This document shows positions 243-25,817 of a DNA stretch of 33,963 nucleotides, piece after piece. The stretch covers positions 1 through 33,963 of IMG/VR virus record IMGVR_UViG_3300042503_000986; one strand, written 5' to 3'. Under the pieces are notes generated by a model. That model ran no database searches and had not been told where the DNA came from. It was given only the letters and a program-made list of their open reading frames with translations. Numbering within the stretch: position 1 is the stretch's first letter; each line of letters starts with the position of its first letter. Source of the DNA: a virus. The translations under genes and the position numbers were made by a program.

Positions 243-668
243 ATGGATTGGCAATATAATGGAACGGTCTTTACCGATGTTCCCAAAGGAATGGAAGGAT
301 TTGTTTACATAATTACGAATCTTACGAACAATAAAAAGTACATTGGTAAAAAACATTTCTGGACAAGACAAAAGAACAAAAAGACAGGAAGAAGAAAGAC
401 CGAAGAATCTGATTGGAAAAATTACTTTGGTTCTTGTGATGAATTAAAAGAAGATGTAAAAAAAATAGGTAAAGAACATTTCCTTAGAGAAATACTTTAC
501 CTATGTCCTCATAAGAAATCTATGAGTTATTATGAAACTTATGAACAATTTAATCGTAATGTATTGTTAAGTGAAGACTATTATAATACCAATATCGGTG
601 GAACCTTTTATATGAGTGAATCTGAAAGAATTTATGGCGTGGTTCTTAAGTCTTCTAAGATTAGCTAA
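243..668 (+). CDS. GIY-YIG family endonuclease (probable homing endonuclease)
   Basis: This 141-aa protein has the GIY-YIG signature near its start: FVYIITNLTNNKKYIGKK at about residues 20-37 supplies the two beta-strand motifs. A conserved C-terminal stretch (YEQFNRNVLLSEDYYNTNIGG) carries the glutamate and asparagines expected in the metal-binding half of the nuclease. Freestanding GIY-YIG enzymes of T4-like phages (the Seg group) cut DNA and spread by gene conversion, so homing is the likely role. It is the only plus-strand gene in 34 kb, and it sits between minus-strand genes with its own late-type promoter. A strong minus-strand early promoter at 696-724 points into it and would make antisense RNA. 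There is no obvious C-terminal DNA-binding repeat domain. Confidence 0.8.
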   Translation: MDWQYNGTVFTDVPKGMEGFVYIITNLTNNKKYIGKKHFWTRQKNKKTGRRKTEESDWKNYFGSCDELKEDVKKIGKEHFLREILYLCPHKKSMSYYETYEQFNRNVLLSEDYYNTNIGGTFYMSESERIYGVVLKSSKIS

Positions 669-2320: not shown

Positions 2321-3880
2321 TCAACCTGCAGGTTTTGATTTTACACCAAGTGCCTTATTACGAGCAGCGTCGTTTGCTCTTGCGGTAGCAAGTTTCTTAG
2401 CAGCATTTGCCGCATCAGATTTCTTGTATGCACCAGCAAATAAAGATCTACCAATTCTTTCTAATGGATTAGAAGAAGTCTTAGCAAGTGACTGAGCACT
2501 TGGGCCCGCTTTATAAACTGCTTTGCCACCTTTATATGCAAGATGTCCCGCAACAGATTGACCACCTCTTTGAACTACACCAGTCTTAGCAAGACCAACT
2601 GTTTTTCTTTGTGCTCCAGTTCCTGTAGTCATTGTATTCTTTTTAGTATCGAAGGTTGTTTTACCACCAATACCTTTAAGTGCAGTTCCTGCTTGGCGCT
2701 GACGATTCGCAGTTGCCATTGCTTTTCTTTCTTTAGCATTTGCTCCAGCAACAGTGTCAAACGCCTTTTCTGCAGCAGCACCGCCCGCCATAGCGCCAGC
2801 AGTTCCTGTGGCGGCACTCAATAATCCACCACCACCAATTGCTCCTGCAGTACCACCAAGAAGTCCTCCAGCGGCAACTGTAGCACCTTTAGCGAGTGAT
2901 CTTGCCCATCCAGATCCTTTTGCTCTTTCATCGGCAGTAGAGAGTGCAGTATCTAGTACTGCAGAAGCAGGTCCAGCAATCCTACCAAATCTGCTTGGTT
3001 TTACCCCAGCGGGTGGTTTTCCTGCTGACGCTGGTACTATTGCAGAAGAAGATGGTTTTCCTGTATTGGTTAAACTTGATGATTGTCTTTTTGCTAATGC
3101 ACTTGAAGAATTCTTAGCATCATATGCTGCTGCCCTTGCCACCTTTCTGTCTGCTCTAATTTTACGAATTTCTGCCTCCATTTCTGGAGTAATTTCTCTT
3201 CTTCCACTGCTAGTAGTTGATCTCTGTGGTTGTGCTTGTGGAGTAGATGCTTTTACGGTTTCTTTCCCCACACCAAATGTTGAACTAGATGATGAATTTG
3301 AAGGTTTTGGAGTTTTTCCTGGTCTTGGTGTGTTTGTTCTATTTGCAGCATCTTGTGCGCCTTGCATCATAGCATCTGGAATACCAGGATTACGACTAGT
3401 GCGTCTTGCTAAATCTCCACCCCTTTCTCTAGATCCTATAGGAGGTAATGCCTCTTTTGGAGTTGTTCCGCCTGCAGGGGTAAGTGTTTTATTTGGAATT
3501 CTACTTGAAGGACCTTCTTTAGGAAGACCTAATTGTGGTTGACGTTTTTTAGGGAACCAATTCCATGGATCGCCAGGTTTTCTTGCCGGACTTGATACTT
3601 TAGTTACTTTTGGTTCTACATTAGGTTGAGTTGTTCTAGATGCAATATCGTTTGTCGTTGTAACTTCTGGTGCAGCGTTTGCAGATGCTCTTGCAGATCT
3701 AATCGCAGGAGCAGAAGCACCCCCTTGCAATGGTTGTCCCTGTCTTCCTAAAGCAGCCTTACTTCCACCCAATCTTCTTCTTGACTCTGCAGGTAAAGAA
3801 TTAAATTGATCTCTAGTCATACCTGCTGGTACTTCCTCATTCAAATATGATTCATGCAAAAACTGACTAAAAGACTTCAT
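2321..3880 (-). CDS. Ala/Gly/Ser-rich late protein with a capsid-targeting-like N-terminus
   Basis: 519 residues beginning MKSFSQFLHE, which resembles the ten-residue capsid-targeting peptide of T4 internal head proteins (MKTYQEFIAE) and ends in LHE, fitting the T4 gp21 protease rule (Leu/Ile-x-Glu). The next ~320 residues are low-complexity, basic and rich in Pro, Ser and Ala. Residues about 328-372 form a Gly/Ala hydrophobic segment (GGLLGGTAGAIGG) like a glycine-zipper or membrane-active helix. The rest is Lys/Ala-rich with little acid. A perfect late promoter lies at 3903-3910. No enzyme motif is visible. It may be a packaged basic head protein or an ejected protein; that role is inferred from the N-terminus, promoter and composition. 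Confidence 0.75.
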   Translation of the reverse strand: MKSFSQFLHESYLNEEVPAGMTRDQFNSLPAESRRRLGGSKAALGRQGQPLQGGASAPAIRSARASANAAPEVTTTNDIASRTTQPNVEPKVTKVSSPARKPGDPWNWFPKKRQPQLGLPKEGPSSRIPNKTLTPAGGTTPKEALPPIGSRERGGDLARRTSRNPGIPDAMMQGAQDAANRTNTPRPGKTPKPSNSSSSSTFGVGKETVKASTPQAQPQRSTTSSGRREITPEMEAEIRKIRADRKVARAAAYDAKNSSSALAKRQSSSLTNTGKPSSSAIVPASAGKPPAGVKPSRFGRIAGPASAVLDTALSTADERAKGSGWARSLAKGATVAAGGLLGGTAGAIGGGGLLSAATGTAGAMAGGAAAEKAFDTVAGANAKERKAMATANRQRQAGTALKGIGGKTTFDTKKNTMTTGTGAQRKTVGLAKTGVVQRGGQSVAGHLAYKGGKAVYKAGPSAQSLAKTSSNPLERIGRSLFAGAYKKSDAANAAKKLATARANDAARNKALGVKSKPAG

Positions 3881-11642: not shown

Positions 11643-13343
11643 CTATCTCAAATTCGGATTTCTTTCACGAGCAGACAATGATGGATGATCCTCTTCAGGT
11701 TTTTCTCTTTCATAACTTTGCTTTTCTTTCTGAGATTTTATCTTTTTATTCTTTTGTGTCTCCAAATCAGCATCAGTTCTTTGTTGTGCTTTTGCAGTTG
11801 AAGAATTTCGTTTTCCCCTTTTCTGCAATTTATAAAAGAGGGGAGTTGATTCATCAATCGACTCACCTTCCAATTCGTGCGATGCTAATTGCAATTTAGG
11901 AGACTTTTTGGGGGTTGGTGTTTGCTTTTCTCCAGGAAGATGTGGGCGACCACCTGGAGCTTTGGGTGTTCCTGGTCTATATTCTCCAGGTAATGCAGGA
12001 CCAGTTTGCTCAGAAGCAACCATTACCAATGGGTCTCTAACACCCATTGATCTTGCTTTATTCTTTGCAAGATTAATTGCAGTTGCAAGAGGACGACGAT
12101 CTACTCCATCATCTTCCTTTTTTCCACATTCTGCTTCTTCTTTTTGAACTTTTTGTTTAGGAATTCCCTCATGCTTTGTTTTAGCAAATTTACGAATTTC
12201 CTTTTCGCTCATCTTATCAACAATATCAAGAACTGCTTGACTTACTTCAGATCTTGAAGTTTTTCCTCTTTTGACTGAAAGTGCAAGTCCAAAAAGTTTT
12301 TGCTGTTGCTCACTTTCCGCCTTTTCATGAAGAGCATGAACTTTTTTAAGAAACTTAGAATAACCATTTTCAATAATAACATCACCTTCGATTTCATAAT
12401 GTGACATTAATTTTGATTGTGAGTTATCAGTTGGATTCACAACAATTTTATTTTTTTTGGTAGTAAAATCAATCTGAGTGGGATTTGTATCAGGACTTAC
12501 TTGCTGTGAAGCGTCAGTCTGAGGCAAATTTGCGGTTGCTGCTACCTCACCTAAAAAACCTTCTTTTACGCTTGAGGTATCTTTACCATCAGCAACTCCA
12601 CCTTTTTTACGTTGAATTGCATTATGTACTGCTCCGCGATACTCTTTTGCACCACTTTCAACTTTTCCATCCCTATCATAATCTTTCTTCGCTTTTCCAC
12701 CACCTAAAGCGGTAGCAGTTTGCTCACCCCTTTCTCTCTCACCTTCATATGGAGTTCCATATTCGGTCATTTCAACTTCAAGACCTTTTGCTCTAAGTTC
12801 ACTAATTTTTTTACGAGTTGCATATCTAACATAAGATACGCCACTTTGCTTATCAGTGACTCTAACTTTATATTTTTTAGATTCTGCTGAATTATACTTA
12901 TTAAAGTGTGCTTTTTCTTCTAAATCCAATTTAAGTTGATCTAGATCAATATACTCTTCCTTTTTTTCCAGAAAAACTTTATAAAGTGCTTTAGAAACTG
13001 CATTTGAAGCAGATTTTTTCATATAATTCTCAAAATTCTCCGCTTGCATCGCACCACCCTCTTTACCAAAGAGTTTTCTCTTTACTTCTTGTTTCTCCTG
13101 TTCACCCATAGAACTATTTTGCATATACTGGGAATATGCAGTGCGAAGAGGTAGATTTTCCCTTCTTGCGCGGTAGCGAATATCATAAACTGCTTGCTTA
13201 ACTTTCTGCTCTGGAGTTTTTTCTCCACCACCATCTCTCTTTTCATCACCAGAATTTCTACTTTCTGGTTTCTTGTTTTGAGAAGACAATTGTGCTTGTG
13301 GATGACTTCTTGCAGGAAGATCTTCGGCAATGTGCTTTTTCAT
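11643..13343 (-). CDS. Large charged late protein with a DUF3008-like segment
   Basis: 566 aa, very rich in Lys, Glu and Gln, with no membrane segment. Residues ~200-260 hold an acidic loop (KDYDRDGKVESGAKEYRG) that resembles a calcium-binding EF-hand or dockerin loop but lacks the usual acidic residue at position 12. Residues ~340-400 (KLFGLALSVKRGKTSRSEVS ... MSEKEIRKFAKTKHEGIP) match the pattern of DUF3008, normally a small free-standing protein. The C-terminus is basic and Pro-rich. The start (MKKHIAED) contains IAE, but is shorter than a full capsid-targeting peptide. A late-type promoter lies at 13379-13386. Probably virion-associated; role unknown. Confidence 0.7.
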   Translation of the reverse strand: MKKHIAEDLPARSHPQAQLSSQNKKPESRNSGDEKRDGGGEKTPEQKVKQAVYDIRYRARRENLPLRTAYSQYMQNSSMGEQEKQEVKRKLFGKEGGAMQAENFENYMKKSASNAVSKALYKVFLEKKEEYIDLDQLKLDLEEKAHFNKYNSAESKKYKVRVTDKQSGVSYVRYATRKKISELRAKGLEVEMTEYGTPYEGERERGEQTATALGGGKAKKDYDRDGKVESGAKEYRGAVHNAIQRKKGGVADGKDTSSVKEGFLGEVAATANLPQTDASQQVSPDTNPTQIDFTTKKNKIVVNPTDNSQSKLMSHYEIEGDVIIENGYSKFLKKVHALHEKAESEQQQKLFGLALSVKRGKTSRSEVSQAVLDIVDKMSEKEIRKFAKTKHEGIPKQKVQKEEAECGKKEDDGVDRRPLATAINLAKNKARSMGVRDPLVMVASEQTGPALPGEYRPGTPKAPGGRPHLPGEKQTPTPKKSPKLQLASHELEGESIDESTPLFYKLQKRGKRNSSTAKAQQRTDADLETQKNKKIKSQKEKQSYEREKPEEDHPSLSARERNPNLR

Positions 13344-13352
13344 ATGAAGAAT

Positions 13353-14690
13353 TTAACGTTTTACTTTTTTCCTATGTTTATTTATGAAATTAATACCATA
13401 TGCTTTTCCACCAACTTGAAGGTTCTCTGCACCAGTTCCCACTGCTCCAGGAGTCATCATCGTAGCGTATTTAAAAAAACCAGTAGTTCCAACTAAAGTA
13501 TTTGGTTTTCCTGGCATTCTCATTACCCTATTCATTTGTTTTTCAGAATAAGATTCTTTTACATCTTTAATCCAGGATTTGAACATCATTCCATTTTCAG
13601 TCACGCAAATTAGATAGTTAGTTCCTCTACGAATAATTTTACCATTCAATCCAGTATTTAAATTTTCAACAAAAGTTCCAACTTTAAAAATATTTTTGCC
13701 AATATAATTTTCGCGTAGAGAATGTGGATCAAATTTTGGAGCAATTTCCCATGTATTGTATCCTTCTTGTTGTATTTCTTGAATACCCATTCCCTGCCTA
13801 ACAAAATCAAAAAGTTGAAGTGCTTCTTTATTTTTGATTTCTGGAGGAAGACCAGATCTAAATGTCATAAAATCTCCTTCTGCGGCAGCAAGTCTAAGTC
13901 TTGATGCAGAGATTCCTTCAACACCCTTGTTACTATCAGGATCTCTATCACCAGAAGATAGTACATCAATAACATCAAATTGGTAAAGTTGTCCGTTATA
14001 TTCATTGGACAACCTCTCAAATTCTTTAACTCGATCAGATCCACCTACTATTCTAACATTAGTGTATCCATCATTATGTGCCTTTTTAAGAACATCAAAA
14101 ATAGTTCTAAAGTTTGGATCATTTACAATTCTTTCACTATGATTTGGAAACATCATTCTCATGAATGATATTTTAGTATCAGGATCCAGTGGATTTTTCT
14201 TTTTATCTAGACTGCGAGATGGAACAATAATATAGTCACCATCTTCTTCCATTGCTGCCATGGCGGCAGTATCCATTAATTGTTGATGTCCAATCGTAGG
14301 AGGATTAAAACGACCAAAAGCAATTGTAAGAGTTCCTTTTGTTTTAGGAACAGGTGGTGGAGTTGCTACTGGCACTTCTTGAGGAATTTCTTCTTGTGGA
14401 ACATCTTGAGGTTGCTGTTCTACAGGAACCTGTTGCTGTTGAGGAGCAGGTTGTTCTGGATATGAAGATCCTAGAGGAATATTTTTTTCAAATTCACTCT
14501 GTTTTGGATCTTTTCCACCAATAACCTGACGCTTGTTAAAATACTTCAGTTGGCCACCCACGGTCTTTGCCTCAAATTCACCAGTGGCCCTATTATACCA
14601 CCCCCCATGCCCATCGCCAACAAGCGCAAGACGTTTTGCTTGAATCGATGCCGAGGTTGCTTCCGTTATGAATTGGTGAAATTTTTTCAT
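13353..14690 (-). CDS. Nucleotidyltransferase (NMNAT/cytidylyltransferase-like) with a capsid-targeting-like N-terminus
   Basis: 445 aa. It starts MKKFHQFITE-A, matching the T4 capsid-targeting peptide pattern with ITE-A as a possible gp21 cleavage site. A short module follows at 21-55 (GDGHGGWYNRATGEFEAKT), then a Pro/Gln linker. The catalytic domain at ~120-300 has the HxGH-type loop GRFNPPTIGH (126-135) and the second signature ISASRLR (260-266). This family transfers a nucleotide to substrates such as nicotinamide mononucleotide or phosphocholine; the substrate here is not known. Residues ~337-379 form a small beta, KOW-like module (GLNGKIIRRGTNYLICVTE), then a basic tail. Promoter at 14734-14741. 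T4 Alt is a precedent for an enzyme carried in the head. Confidence 0.85.
   Translation of the reverse strand: MKKFHQFITEATSASIQAKRLALVGDGHGGWYNRATGEFEAKTVGGQLKYFNKRQVIGGKDPKQSEFEKNIPLGSSYPEQPAPQQQQVPVEQQPQDVPQEEIPQEVPVATPPPVPKTKGTLTIAFGRFNPPTIGHQQLMDTAAMAAMEEDGDYIIVPSRSLDKKKNPLDPDTKISFMRMMFPNHSERIVNDPNFRTIFDVLKKAHNDGYTNVRIVGGSDRVKEFERLSNEYNGQLYQFDVIDVLSSGDRDPDSNKGVEGISASRLRLAAAEGDFMTFRSGLPPEIKNKEALQLFDFVRQGMGIQEIQQEGYNTWEIAPKFDPHSLRENYIGKNIFKVGTFVENLNTGLNGKIIRRGTNYLICVTENGMMFKSWIKDVKESYSEKQMNRVMRMPGKPNTLVGTTGFFKYATMMTPGAVGTGAENLQVGGKAYGINFINKHRKKVKR
13379..13386 (-). promoter_or_regulatory. Late-type promoter CATAAATA inside the end of the nucleotidyltransferase gene
   Basis: CATAAATA (minus strand) lies in the last codons of the 13353-14690 gene, 36 bases before the ATG at 13343. 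One mismatch to TATAAATA. Confidence 0.55.
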
Positions 14691-14733: not shown

Positions 14734-14741
14734 TATTTATT
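14734..14741 (-). promoter_or_regulatory. Late-type promoter AATAAATA for the nucleotidyltransferase
   Basis: AATAAATA within a longer AT-rich run lies between the tRNA gene and the ATG at 14690, leaving a leader of about 35 bases. The nearby AT repeats make the exact start uncertain. Confidence 0.55.
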
Positions 14742-14749
14742 TATTTTAA

Positions 14750-14829
14750 TGCCCAAAAGAGGACTCGAACCTCCACGCCGAAGCACATGATCCTAAGTCA
14801 TGCGTGTATACCAGTTTCACCATTTGGGC
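14750..14829 (-). tRNA. tRNA-Leu (anticodon UAG)
   Basis: 80 bases fold as a class II tRNA: acceptor GCCCAAA pairs with TTTGGGC, the anticodon stem CATGA/TCATG closes the loop CTTAGGA (anticodon TAG), a long variable arm (TGCTTCGGCG) follows, and the T-arm is GAGG-TTCGAGT-CCTC. It reads CUA and other CUN leucine codons. CCA is not encoded, so the host must add it. The discriminator base is A, as expected for leucine. It lies between the HExxH gene and the nucleotidyltransferase, on the same strand. Confidence 0.95.
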
Positions 14830-14843
14830 ATAAAAGAATTATA

Positions 14844-24379: not shown

Positions 24380-24762
24380 TTTGTTCCTCCAGTTTCAAAT
24401 TTCGATTTAATAAATGTTAGTTGTTCTTTAGTAAGAATCCTCAAAGCCTGTTTTGCCTTTTCATTACTATATCCATAATAACGTTTGACATAATCAAGAT
24501 CTTTGATTTTATCTTGTCGGAGCCAGGGAGAATATCTCTTCTTTTTCCTCAGACTATTTATATAAAAGTCATATTGCATCTTCTTTGGGAGGAAATGATA
24601 TTGGTTCATTTCATTTGCAAACATCAAACAGTCAATATGCCCAGAAAGACAGCGATTGATGATATAAGGTGTATATTCTTTTTCAGATGTAGGATCTTCA
24701 TCCATAATATTATTTTTTGTTTGGTTGATAGAATTCAACCAATCTTTCAATTCATAAGTCAT
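24376..24762 (-). CDS. 62: Clamp loader small subunit (T4 gp62-like)
   Basis: 128 aa, shorter than T4 gp62 (187) but typical for marine T4-like phages. It works with gp44 to load the gp45 clamp. Recognisable: YELKDWLNSINQTKNNI at the start, YIINRCLSGHIDCLMFANEM and LRKKKRYSPWLRQDK. It overlaps regA downstream and the DruA-like gene upstream by four bases each, so it is tightly coupled. Confidence 0.9.
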   Translation of the reverse strand: MTYELKDWLNSINQTKNNIMDEDPTSEKEYTPYIINRCLSGHIDCLMFANEMNQYHFLPKKMQYDFYINSLRKKKRYSPWLRQDKIKDLDYVKRYYGYSNEKAKQALRILTKEQLTFIKSKFETGGTK

Positions 24763-25817
24763 CGAATAATCTCCAAATCATTACCATGTTTCCACAACTC
24801 AAGTTCTGTCCTTAAACGACCTTCAGACTTAAGTTTTTCATATCTCTTTGATGCCTTTTTCTTCCACCATTCGATGACTTCTTGAGGTTCATATCCAAAT
24901 TTAGAAAGATAATATCTTTTCTTTTCAGTTAAAGTTTTTGCGTGTTCGATGCAGGAATTAAATTCATCTAACTTAGAATGACCTTTCAAAGAATTCCTAA
25001 TAATAGAAATCATCTTAGTCTGAATCTTCAATTTCTTTGAAGACTTATCTGCAGAAATGAGTCTTTCTCCACCATTGGCAGTATTATTAAACCACCAAAA
25101 CATTTCCTTGAAGTAATCATCATGAAATAGAGGGAGAAAATTGCTTTCAGTATCTCCTATGTGTCGAATATAAGGTTTAAGACCATCATACATGGATACT
25201 CCTTTCGTTGTACCGTATAGTGAAGTTGTTTCAAAGTATTGAAGATCAATTCCATATTTACGATCAAATTGTCGCTTGAGTTCATTGGAAGAAGCAAGAA
25301 GAGCAAGAAGTTTTCCACCAAGATAATTGTATCCAAATGGTTGAACAGGGACAATGTTAAATCCCATTACAAACTCACTGTTAATTCTGGAAAGTGAAAT
25401 AACCTCACCAAAATAATCATTTCTTGGTTTTGAATTAATTGTTGGAGATCCAAATCGGACTACTCCAATTATCTTATTGCTAGTATCCTCAGTCACAATC
25501 CACTTCAAAGTTCTACCAGGAATTGCTTCTTCGATAGGATTTGATGCAGTATCATTCAAAATTTCTGAGTAAAGATCTTGATTGTACTTGGATGTTGTTT
25601 TGGGATTGGTATTTACCTCATGAATTGAAAATGACATTTCATTTGGATGAAGATTGAAATTGGAGAAAATCTCATCCTCAGGCCCGAACAATTTTCCAGA
25701 TGCATTATCCATTCTACTACGTTTAACATAACGAAGATAATCATCGATACGATTAAACTTGGAATAGTACTGTACAAATTGATCTGCTGCCCAAATTGCA
25801 TCTTCAATAGATAACAT
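24759..25817 (-). CDS. DUF4338/DruA-like protein inside the clamp-loader operon
   Basis: 352 aa. The central part resembles the DUF4338 (DruA) pattern: IGVVRFGSP at 117-125, NYLGGKLLALLASS at 164-177, YGIDLQYFETTSLYG at 188-202, then YDGLKPYIRHIGDTES. DruA is a core component of the Druantia anti-phage systems; its biochemistry is not settled. Flanking regions are helical and charged. Both ends fit the operon (overlap with 62, eight bases from the next gene). A phage copy could be a decoy, an exclusion factor or an unrelated nucleic-acid function. The family call is from remembered motifs and needs a profile search. Confidence 0.45.
   Translation of the reverse strand: MLSIEDAIWAADQFVQYYSKFNRIDDYLRYVKRSRMDNASGKLFGPEDEIFSNFNLHPNEMSFSIHEVNTNPKTTSKYNQDLYSEILNDTASNPIEEAIPGRTLKWIVTEDTSNKIIGVVRFGSPTINSKPRNDYFGEVISLSRINSEFVMGFNIVPVQPFGYNYLGGKLLALLASSNELKRQFDRKYGIDLQYFETTSLYGTTKGVSMYDGLKPYIRHIGDTESNFLPLFHDDYFKEMFWWFNNTANGGERLISADKSSKKLKIQTKMISIIRNSLKGHSKLDEFNSCIEHAKTLTEKKRYYLSKFGYEPQEVIEWWKKKASKRYEKLKSEGRLRTELELWKHGNDLEIIR

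Follow-up and report, generated by a model that had tools for sequence, protein, structure and literature searches.

A nucleotidyltransferase of T4-like cyanophages carries a predicted T4-type capsid-targeting tag and is a probable internal head protein

Packaging of the T4 internal head protein IPIII needs its first ten residues; of these, targeting depends on positions 4 and 7, and processing on positions 8 and 10 (PMC9026906). Fusions bearing this tag have been packaged and delivered to the host in T4 work (PMC9026906, review), and T4 gp23 carries a propeptide of 65 residues (PMC9026906). In cyanophages, proteins of a nucleotidyltransferase family have been detected by mass spectrometry in the virions of S-SM1, where the T4-GC190 protein was counted among the core proteins of cyanophages (PMC3037559), of S-SCSM1 as "NMNAT" (PMC9602691), of S-SZBM1 as "cytidylyltransferase" (PMC9146016) and of S-CREM2 as ORF154 (PMC10665884). 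The family was not detected in the 2008 analysis of S-PM2 virions (PMC3037559), nor does the shallow S-CREM1 proteome of 14 proteins mention it by name. Carry-over was considered possible by the authors of the S-SCSM1 (PMC9602691) and S-CREM2 (PMC10665884) studies. Virion presence and the idea of a delivered NMNAT cargo are already published; in the published virion work we found no N-terminal peptide map or ejection experiment for the family.

The window analyzed here, 33,963 bases long, is part of a T4-like cyanophage genome. Positions 13353-14690 of its minus strand hold an open reading frame of 445 amino acids with an ATG start and the N-terminus MKKFHQFITEATSAS. Its features and those of its surroundings, all on the minus strand, are as follows.

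14749..14830, minus strand: tRNA-Leu, immediately upstream of the enzyme's transcription unit
14734..14745, minus strand: putative late promoter, two overlapping AATAAATA, at -55 and -51
13353..14690, minus strand: tagged nucleotidyltransferase gene, T4-GC190 / "cytidyltransferase" family, 445 aa
14661..14690, minus strand: predicted capsid-targeting sequence MKKFHQFITE, residues 1-10
14658-14660, minus strand: codon of A11; predicted prohead-protease (gp21) cut at E10/A11
14541..14657, minus strand: small conserved N-terminal module, A..L.L..dGhG.W....GeF, residues 12-50
14340..14540, minus strand: variable linker, predicted to be disordered, rich in P, Q and E, residues 51-117
13779..14339, minus strand: HIGH-type nucleotidyltransferase domain, residues 118-304
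14286..14315, minus strand: ATP-binding motif GRFNPPTIGH, residues 126-135
13893..13913, minus strand: ISASRLR motif, residues 260-266
13542..13691, minus strand: SH3-like barrel similar to KOW and Tudor domains, residues ~334-383, with a basic tail after it
11643..13343, minus strand: following gene of the transcription unit, product of 566 aa with a DUF3008 segment; its own NATAAATA at -43
2321..3880, minus strand: second tagged protein, MKSFSQFLHE followed by S, 519 aa, with NATAAATA at -30

The preliminary description of this DNA had placed MKKFHQFITE-A ahead of an enzyme domain with GRFNPPTIGH and ISASRLR, and this arrangement was confirmed in the reading frame. By sequence, the 445-aa protein is assigned to the T4-GC190 cyanophage cytidyltransferase family. 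It matches PHROG 395 "cytidyltransferase" (E 7e-99), its nearest isolate is Synechococcus phage S-SRM01 (Kyanoviridae, 84% identity), and the P-SSM2 orthologue PSSM2_194, annotated T4-GC190, is 58% identical end to end. Profile, HIGH and SxSxxR motifs and fold place it in the CTP_transf_like superfamily (PF01467), the Pfam cut-off of 21 being passed with 26.3 bits (E 9.5e-6). Matches were obtained in 531 phage records, cyanophages for the most part, and in cyanophages the gene sits between gp41 and gp61. A search of a defence-system library with the 445-aa protein returned no match. Elsewhere in the window, 24759-25817(-) encodes a 352-aa protein matching Druantia DruA (Pfam E 1.3e-13) within the phage replication gene region, and 243-668(+) encodes a homing endonuclease of the GIY-YIG class (SegE-type); its PHROG bears the name "NAD synthetase", apparently a mis-annotation.

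The N-terminal tag is a nearly constant feature of the family. A tag-type start was scored in 173 of 177 family reading frames and in all 160 environmental relatives fetched; because the first environmental scan had the tag peptide among its six search patterns, the unbiased figure comes from a second scan with search peptides from elsewhere in the protein, where the tag was present in 80 of 80 loci. Among 123 distinct proteins, 43 different tag peptides are encoded by 71 different DNA 33-mers, which indicates that it is the peptide that is kept, rather than DNA shared through recent descent. Conservation reaches 95% or more at each of K2, F4, F7, E10 and A11, and position 8 holds I or L with few exceptions. 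In a scan of 280,152 translated residues (two cyanophage genomes and the window), six distinct reading frames matched the strict pattern MK.[FYL]..F[ILV].E[ASTG], every time at or near the start, against a mean of 0 matches in 50 shuffles; in S-SM1 the only reading frame with the pattern is the enzyme family member. Tagless stand-alone relatives are found in P-HM2, S-CAM1, S-CAM4, the Pelagibacter phage HTVC008M and jumbo phages, and the bare enzyme domain of 183-190 aa occurs in other phages. Packaging is therefore not universal or obligate for the enzyme, and in phages with a tagless form it would act only after synthesis. Enzyme and tag are separable, as a modular packing signal would be. 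We regard the tag as apparently unreported on this family, as none was found in the open literature searched, which does not prove it to be new; a search there for "capsid targeting" in cyanophages gave only a T4 paper with a passing mention.

T4 IPII and IPIII begin with MKTYQEFIAEA, and the conserved cyanophage positions K2, F4, F7, I/L8, E10 and A11 include residues 4, 7, 8 and 10 mapped in T4 IPIII. The 445-aa protein contains a predicted capsid-targeting sequence with both targeting positions, 4 and 7, and a predicted gp21 cleavage site of the form [IL]xE followed by a small residue (I/L8, E10, A11). When a scoring matrix built from the cyanophage tags alone was run over the whole T4 genome, ipIII, ipII and ipI took ranks 2-4 of 2388 candidate starts, with gene 61.1 in rank 1. 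T4 gene 61.1 (NC_000866, 18966-19130(-), 54 aa) adjoins gene 61, has the N-terminus MKTFKEFIKED and may encode an unrecognised packaged protein. The same F/I-L-x-E site followed by A or T was found at the aligned gp23 cleavage position in T4, P-SSM2, S-SRM01 and S-SM1, the position at which T4 gp23 is cut. A gp21-type prohead protease is present in the relatives S-SRM01, P-SSM2 and S-SM1, the corresponding region lying beyond the 34-kb window.

All four orthologues detected in virions bear the tag, each followed by A: MKKFSAFLNE in S-SM1, MKSFLQFLKE in S-SCSM1, MKNFSSFLTE in S-CREM2 and MRFRQFIIE, which is one residue shorter, in S-SZBM1. Since a T4-type tag and orthologues in virions coincide, it is very likely that the protein is packaged and loses residues 1-10. 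The earlier proposal of head packaging with a cut after residue 10 is thus strongly supported by tag and published proteomics for the tagged members, and does not extend to the tagless relatives.

Late timing had also been proposed. NATAAATA has been published as the late promoter of cyanophages (PMC2984593). The two overlapping copies of AATAAATA at -55/-51 agree with the proposal, and of 27 distinct upstream regions from the freshwater clade, 26 have NATAAATA at -75..-45 (shuffles: mean 1.2, maximum 5). Of the window's replication genes that were tested, none has NATAAATA upstream. In S-SM1 it precedes 11 of the 22 late or neighbouring genes listed and none of the 17 genes for replication or metabolism. 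Judged by the promoter motif, late expression is supported in the enzyme's own clade. In the marine clade, where another gene lies immediately ahead of it, the enzyme gene lacks a NATAAATA motif of its own.

The AlphaFold model of the enzyme domain (residues 118-304) is confident, with a pLDDT of ~90 over most of its length. G126, R127, P130, G134 and H135 of the ATP-binding motif are invariant in 129 sequences, as are S261 and R266 of the second motif, with S263 being S or T. Because these key residues of the HIGH site and of SxSxxR are invariant, the enzyme is probably active. Structure comparison gave a tie between CoaD (Z 13.3), NadD (Z 12.7) and NadM (Z 12.0). No specific NCBIfam enzyme family reached its cut-off, only sub-threshold NMNAT-type matches being obtained (TIGR01526, 17.5 bits with 341 needed; TIGR00482, 16.5 bits with 112 needed). 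The models for NMN/NaMN adenylyltransferases (NadM, NadR, NadD) were thus missed by wide margins. NadV/NAPRTase (PF04095) was sought in S-SRM01, P-SSM2, S-SM1 and T4 and was found in none, and thus these phages encode no NMN supply to pair with an NMNAT. As the family models were missed and no phage NAPRTase was found to feed the enzyme, we do not file it as an NMNAT. What holds of the label "NAD- or nucleotide-modifying" is the nucleotidyltransferase fold; greater specificity does not follow from a tie of structures like CoaD, NadD and NadM. That adenylyl is transferred and not cytidylyl can be suggested only tentatively, and so can the substrate.

The reading that we consider probably correct is that of an internal head protein which is made late, packaged by its tag, cut by gp21 and ejected, and which acts as a metabolite adenylyltransferase. 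The protein would be synthesized late from the AATAAATA promoter, and its first ten residues would bind the prohead scaffold core and so bring it into the prohead. There gp21 would cut behind E10, and the mature protein, now beginning with A11, would lie amid the packaged DNA. By analogy with T4, cleavage would be followed by ejection with the DNA into the next host, where the HIGH-type domain with its intact ATP site would transfer AMP from ATP, most likely to a small phosphorylated metabolite, for example NMN or NaMN. NAD or a related cofactor would in this way be adjusted before phage gene expression, a timing that is likewise drawn from the T4 analogy.

A different substrate would leave packaging and ejection as they are. 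With RNA or protein as its target, the enzyme could be led by the SH3-like module and the basic tail to RNA, the ribosome or polymerase, in a manner resembling T4 Alt; we consider this unlikely. It draws on a conserved barrel resembling KOW and Tudor domains and on a C-terminal part with a pI of 10.0, but small folds of common type also reach the barrel's Z of ~7. The barrel matched KOW and Tudor domains as well as SH3-like domains of ribosomal proteins alike, and we do not claim a KOW function. When the C-terminal part was folded separately, confidence was low outside the barrel. A PDB profile search gave nothing convincing; its best match, the UPF0348 protein MJ0951, counts for this reading, yet at an E of 0.0077 it is weak, and neither of the segments spanned by the alignment, the HIGH site and an EGISGTKIR-like segment, is significant alone. 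TmcAL, a tRNA-acting HIGH enzyme, is among the Foldseek matches but ranks under NadD and CoaD. The narrower form, in which a head-delivered, ATP-using nucleotidyltransferase is steered by the SH3-like module and modifies host RNA or protein, seems to us more doubtful still. If true, it would give cyanophages a functional T4 Alt counterpart on a different enzyme fold in hundreds of genomes. P-HM2 and the S-CAM phages encode the SH3-like part as a separate downstream product, and there are stand-alone SH3-like proteins of 85-91 aa (L108 3043-3318; L227 2037-2294). The stand-alone protein of S-CAM4 bears the annotation "aerobic NDP reductase small subunit NrdB", and "ribonucleotide reductase alpha subunit" is the name of the PHROG that the module matches; both names are apparently mis-annotations.

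It is highly improbable that the protein is an ordinary late metabolic enzyme whose detection in virions reflects carry-over of an abundant cell protein. The concern was raised by the mass spectrometry authors themselves, and tagless relatives do exist, but carry-over leaves unexplained four independent virion detections as well as a ten-residue N-terminus that stays the same at precisely those positions which serve targeting and processing in T4, while the linker varies. This linker has low occupancy and high entropy, with pLDDT mostly <55, and its residues 61-115 are absent from about half of the sequences (occupancy 0.55). The tag thus argues against carry-over. Least probable in our view is packaging for head assembly, with a scaffold-associated internal protein in which enzyme activity would be a relic or of no importance. 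T4 IPIII does affect head assembly (PMC9026906) and the neighbouring genes may also encode virion proteins, but the invariance of the catalytic motifs in 129 sequences and the occurrence of the enzyme as a bare domain speak against it. As to these neighbours, genes adjoining the enzyme orthologue are annotated as virion proteins in S-SCSM1 and were detected in S-CREM2 virions, and the product of 11643..13343(-) is a possible second virion protein. Its identification with the S-SCSM1 virion neighbour found no support, BLASTP giving no match, while its relation to P-SSM2 is clear.

The 519-aa product of 2321..3880(-) is a probable further internal head protein, with a tagged counterpart in S-SRM01 at 176324; P-SSM2 has a tagged 573-aa reading frame at 169737. 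A 53-aa reading frame of the window (start 22241(-)), directly after hsp20, begins with MKTFHQFLNE followed by I, and S-SRM01 has a similar start, MKTFQQFMEK, at 157606. In S-CRM01, two small tagged-looking reading frames, gp129 and gp128 (L107 1642-2426), lie ahead of the enzyme. Their starts are MKKLDQFLTE and, at an internal V that may serve as an alternative start, VKLSLDSFIKEA, which in gp128 is followed by the enzyme-type N-terminal DGHG module. In many marine phages, T4-GC71 / DUF6267 adjoins or lies near the enzyme gene (L091 2295-3269; L106 1269-2489; L229 819-2051). Read as motifs, its KWDGAP segment and, near the C-terminus, its EG.V and KLVDR segments look like those with which polynucleotide ligases bind nucleotides.

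Time and again this enzyme has been detected in virion proteomes of cyanophages, with cargo or contamination left undecided by their authors, and a T4-type packing tag with a cut site answers the question in principle. The tag predicts the exact mature N-terminus and offers a simple route to listing more injected proteins. Since the gene is present in hundreds of cyanophage genomes and has been called a cyanophage core gene, T4-style protein shipping into the host may be general among cyanomyoviruses, as these results suggest.

Compared with known systems, the protein is the same in kind as the "citidylyltransferase" or "NMNAT" of S-SM1, S-SCSM1, S-SZBM1 and S-CREM2, sharing with these the family and the N-terminal tag; those four were found in virions. 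In the text examined of those reports the tag is not described, and two of the reports do not commit themselves on true packaging. With CoaD, NadD and NadM/NadR it has in common the fold over 150-165 residues (Z 12-13) and the GRFxPxxxGH and [ST]x[ST]xxR motifs, but identity is 13-21% and the cyanophage protein adds tag, linker and SH3-like module. T4 Alt, proposed earlier as the model, is a fair one for a packaged enzyme: it is carried in the head, loses an N-terminal propeptide to gp21 and is delivered at infection (PMC9026906). It is, however, an ADP-ribosyltransferase of another fold, to which a sequence relation is not expected, and for the tag IPII and IPIII fit better. These share the ten-residue MK.[FY]..F[IL].E followed by A, but whereas the T4 internal proteins are small, variable between phages and, as far as known, non-enzymatic, the cyanophage protein is a conserved multidomain enzyme.
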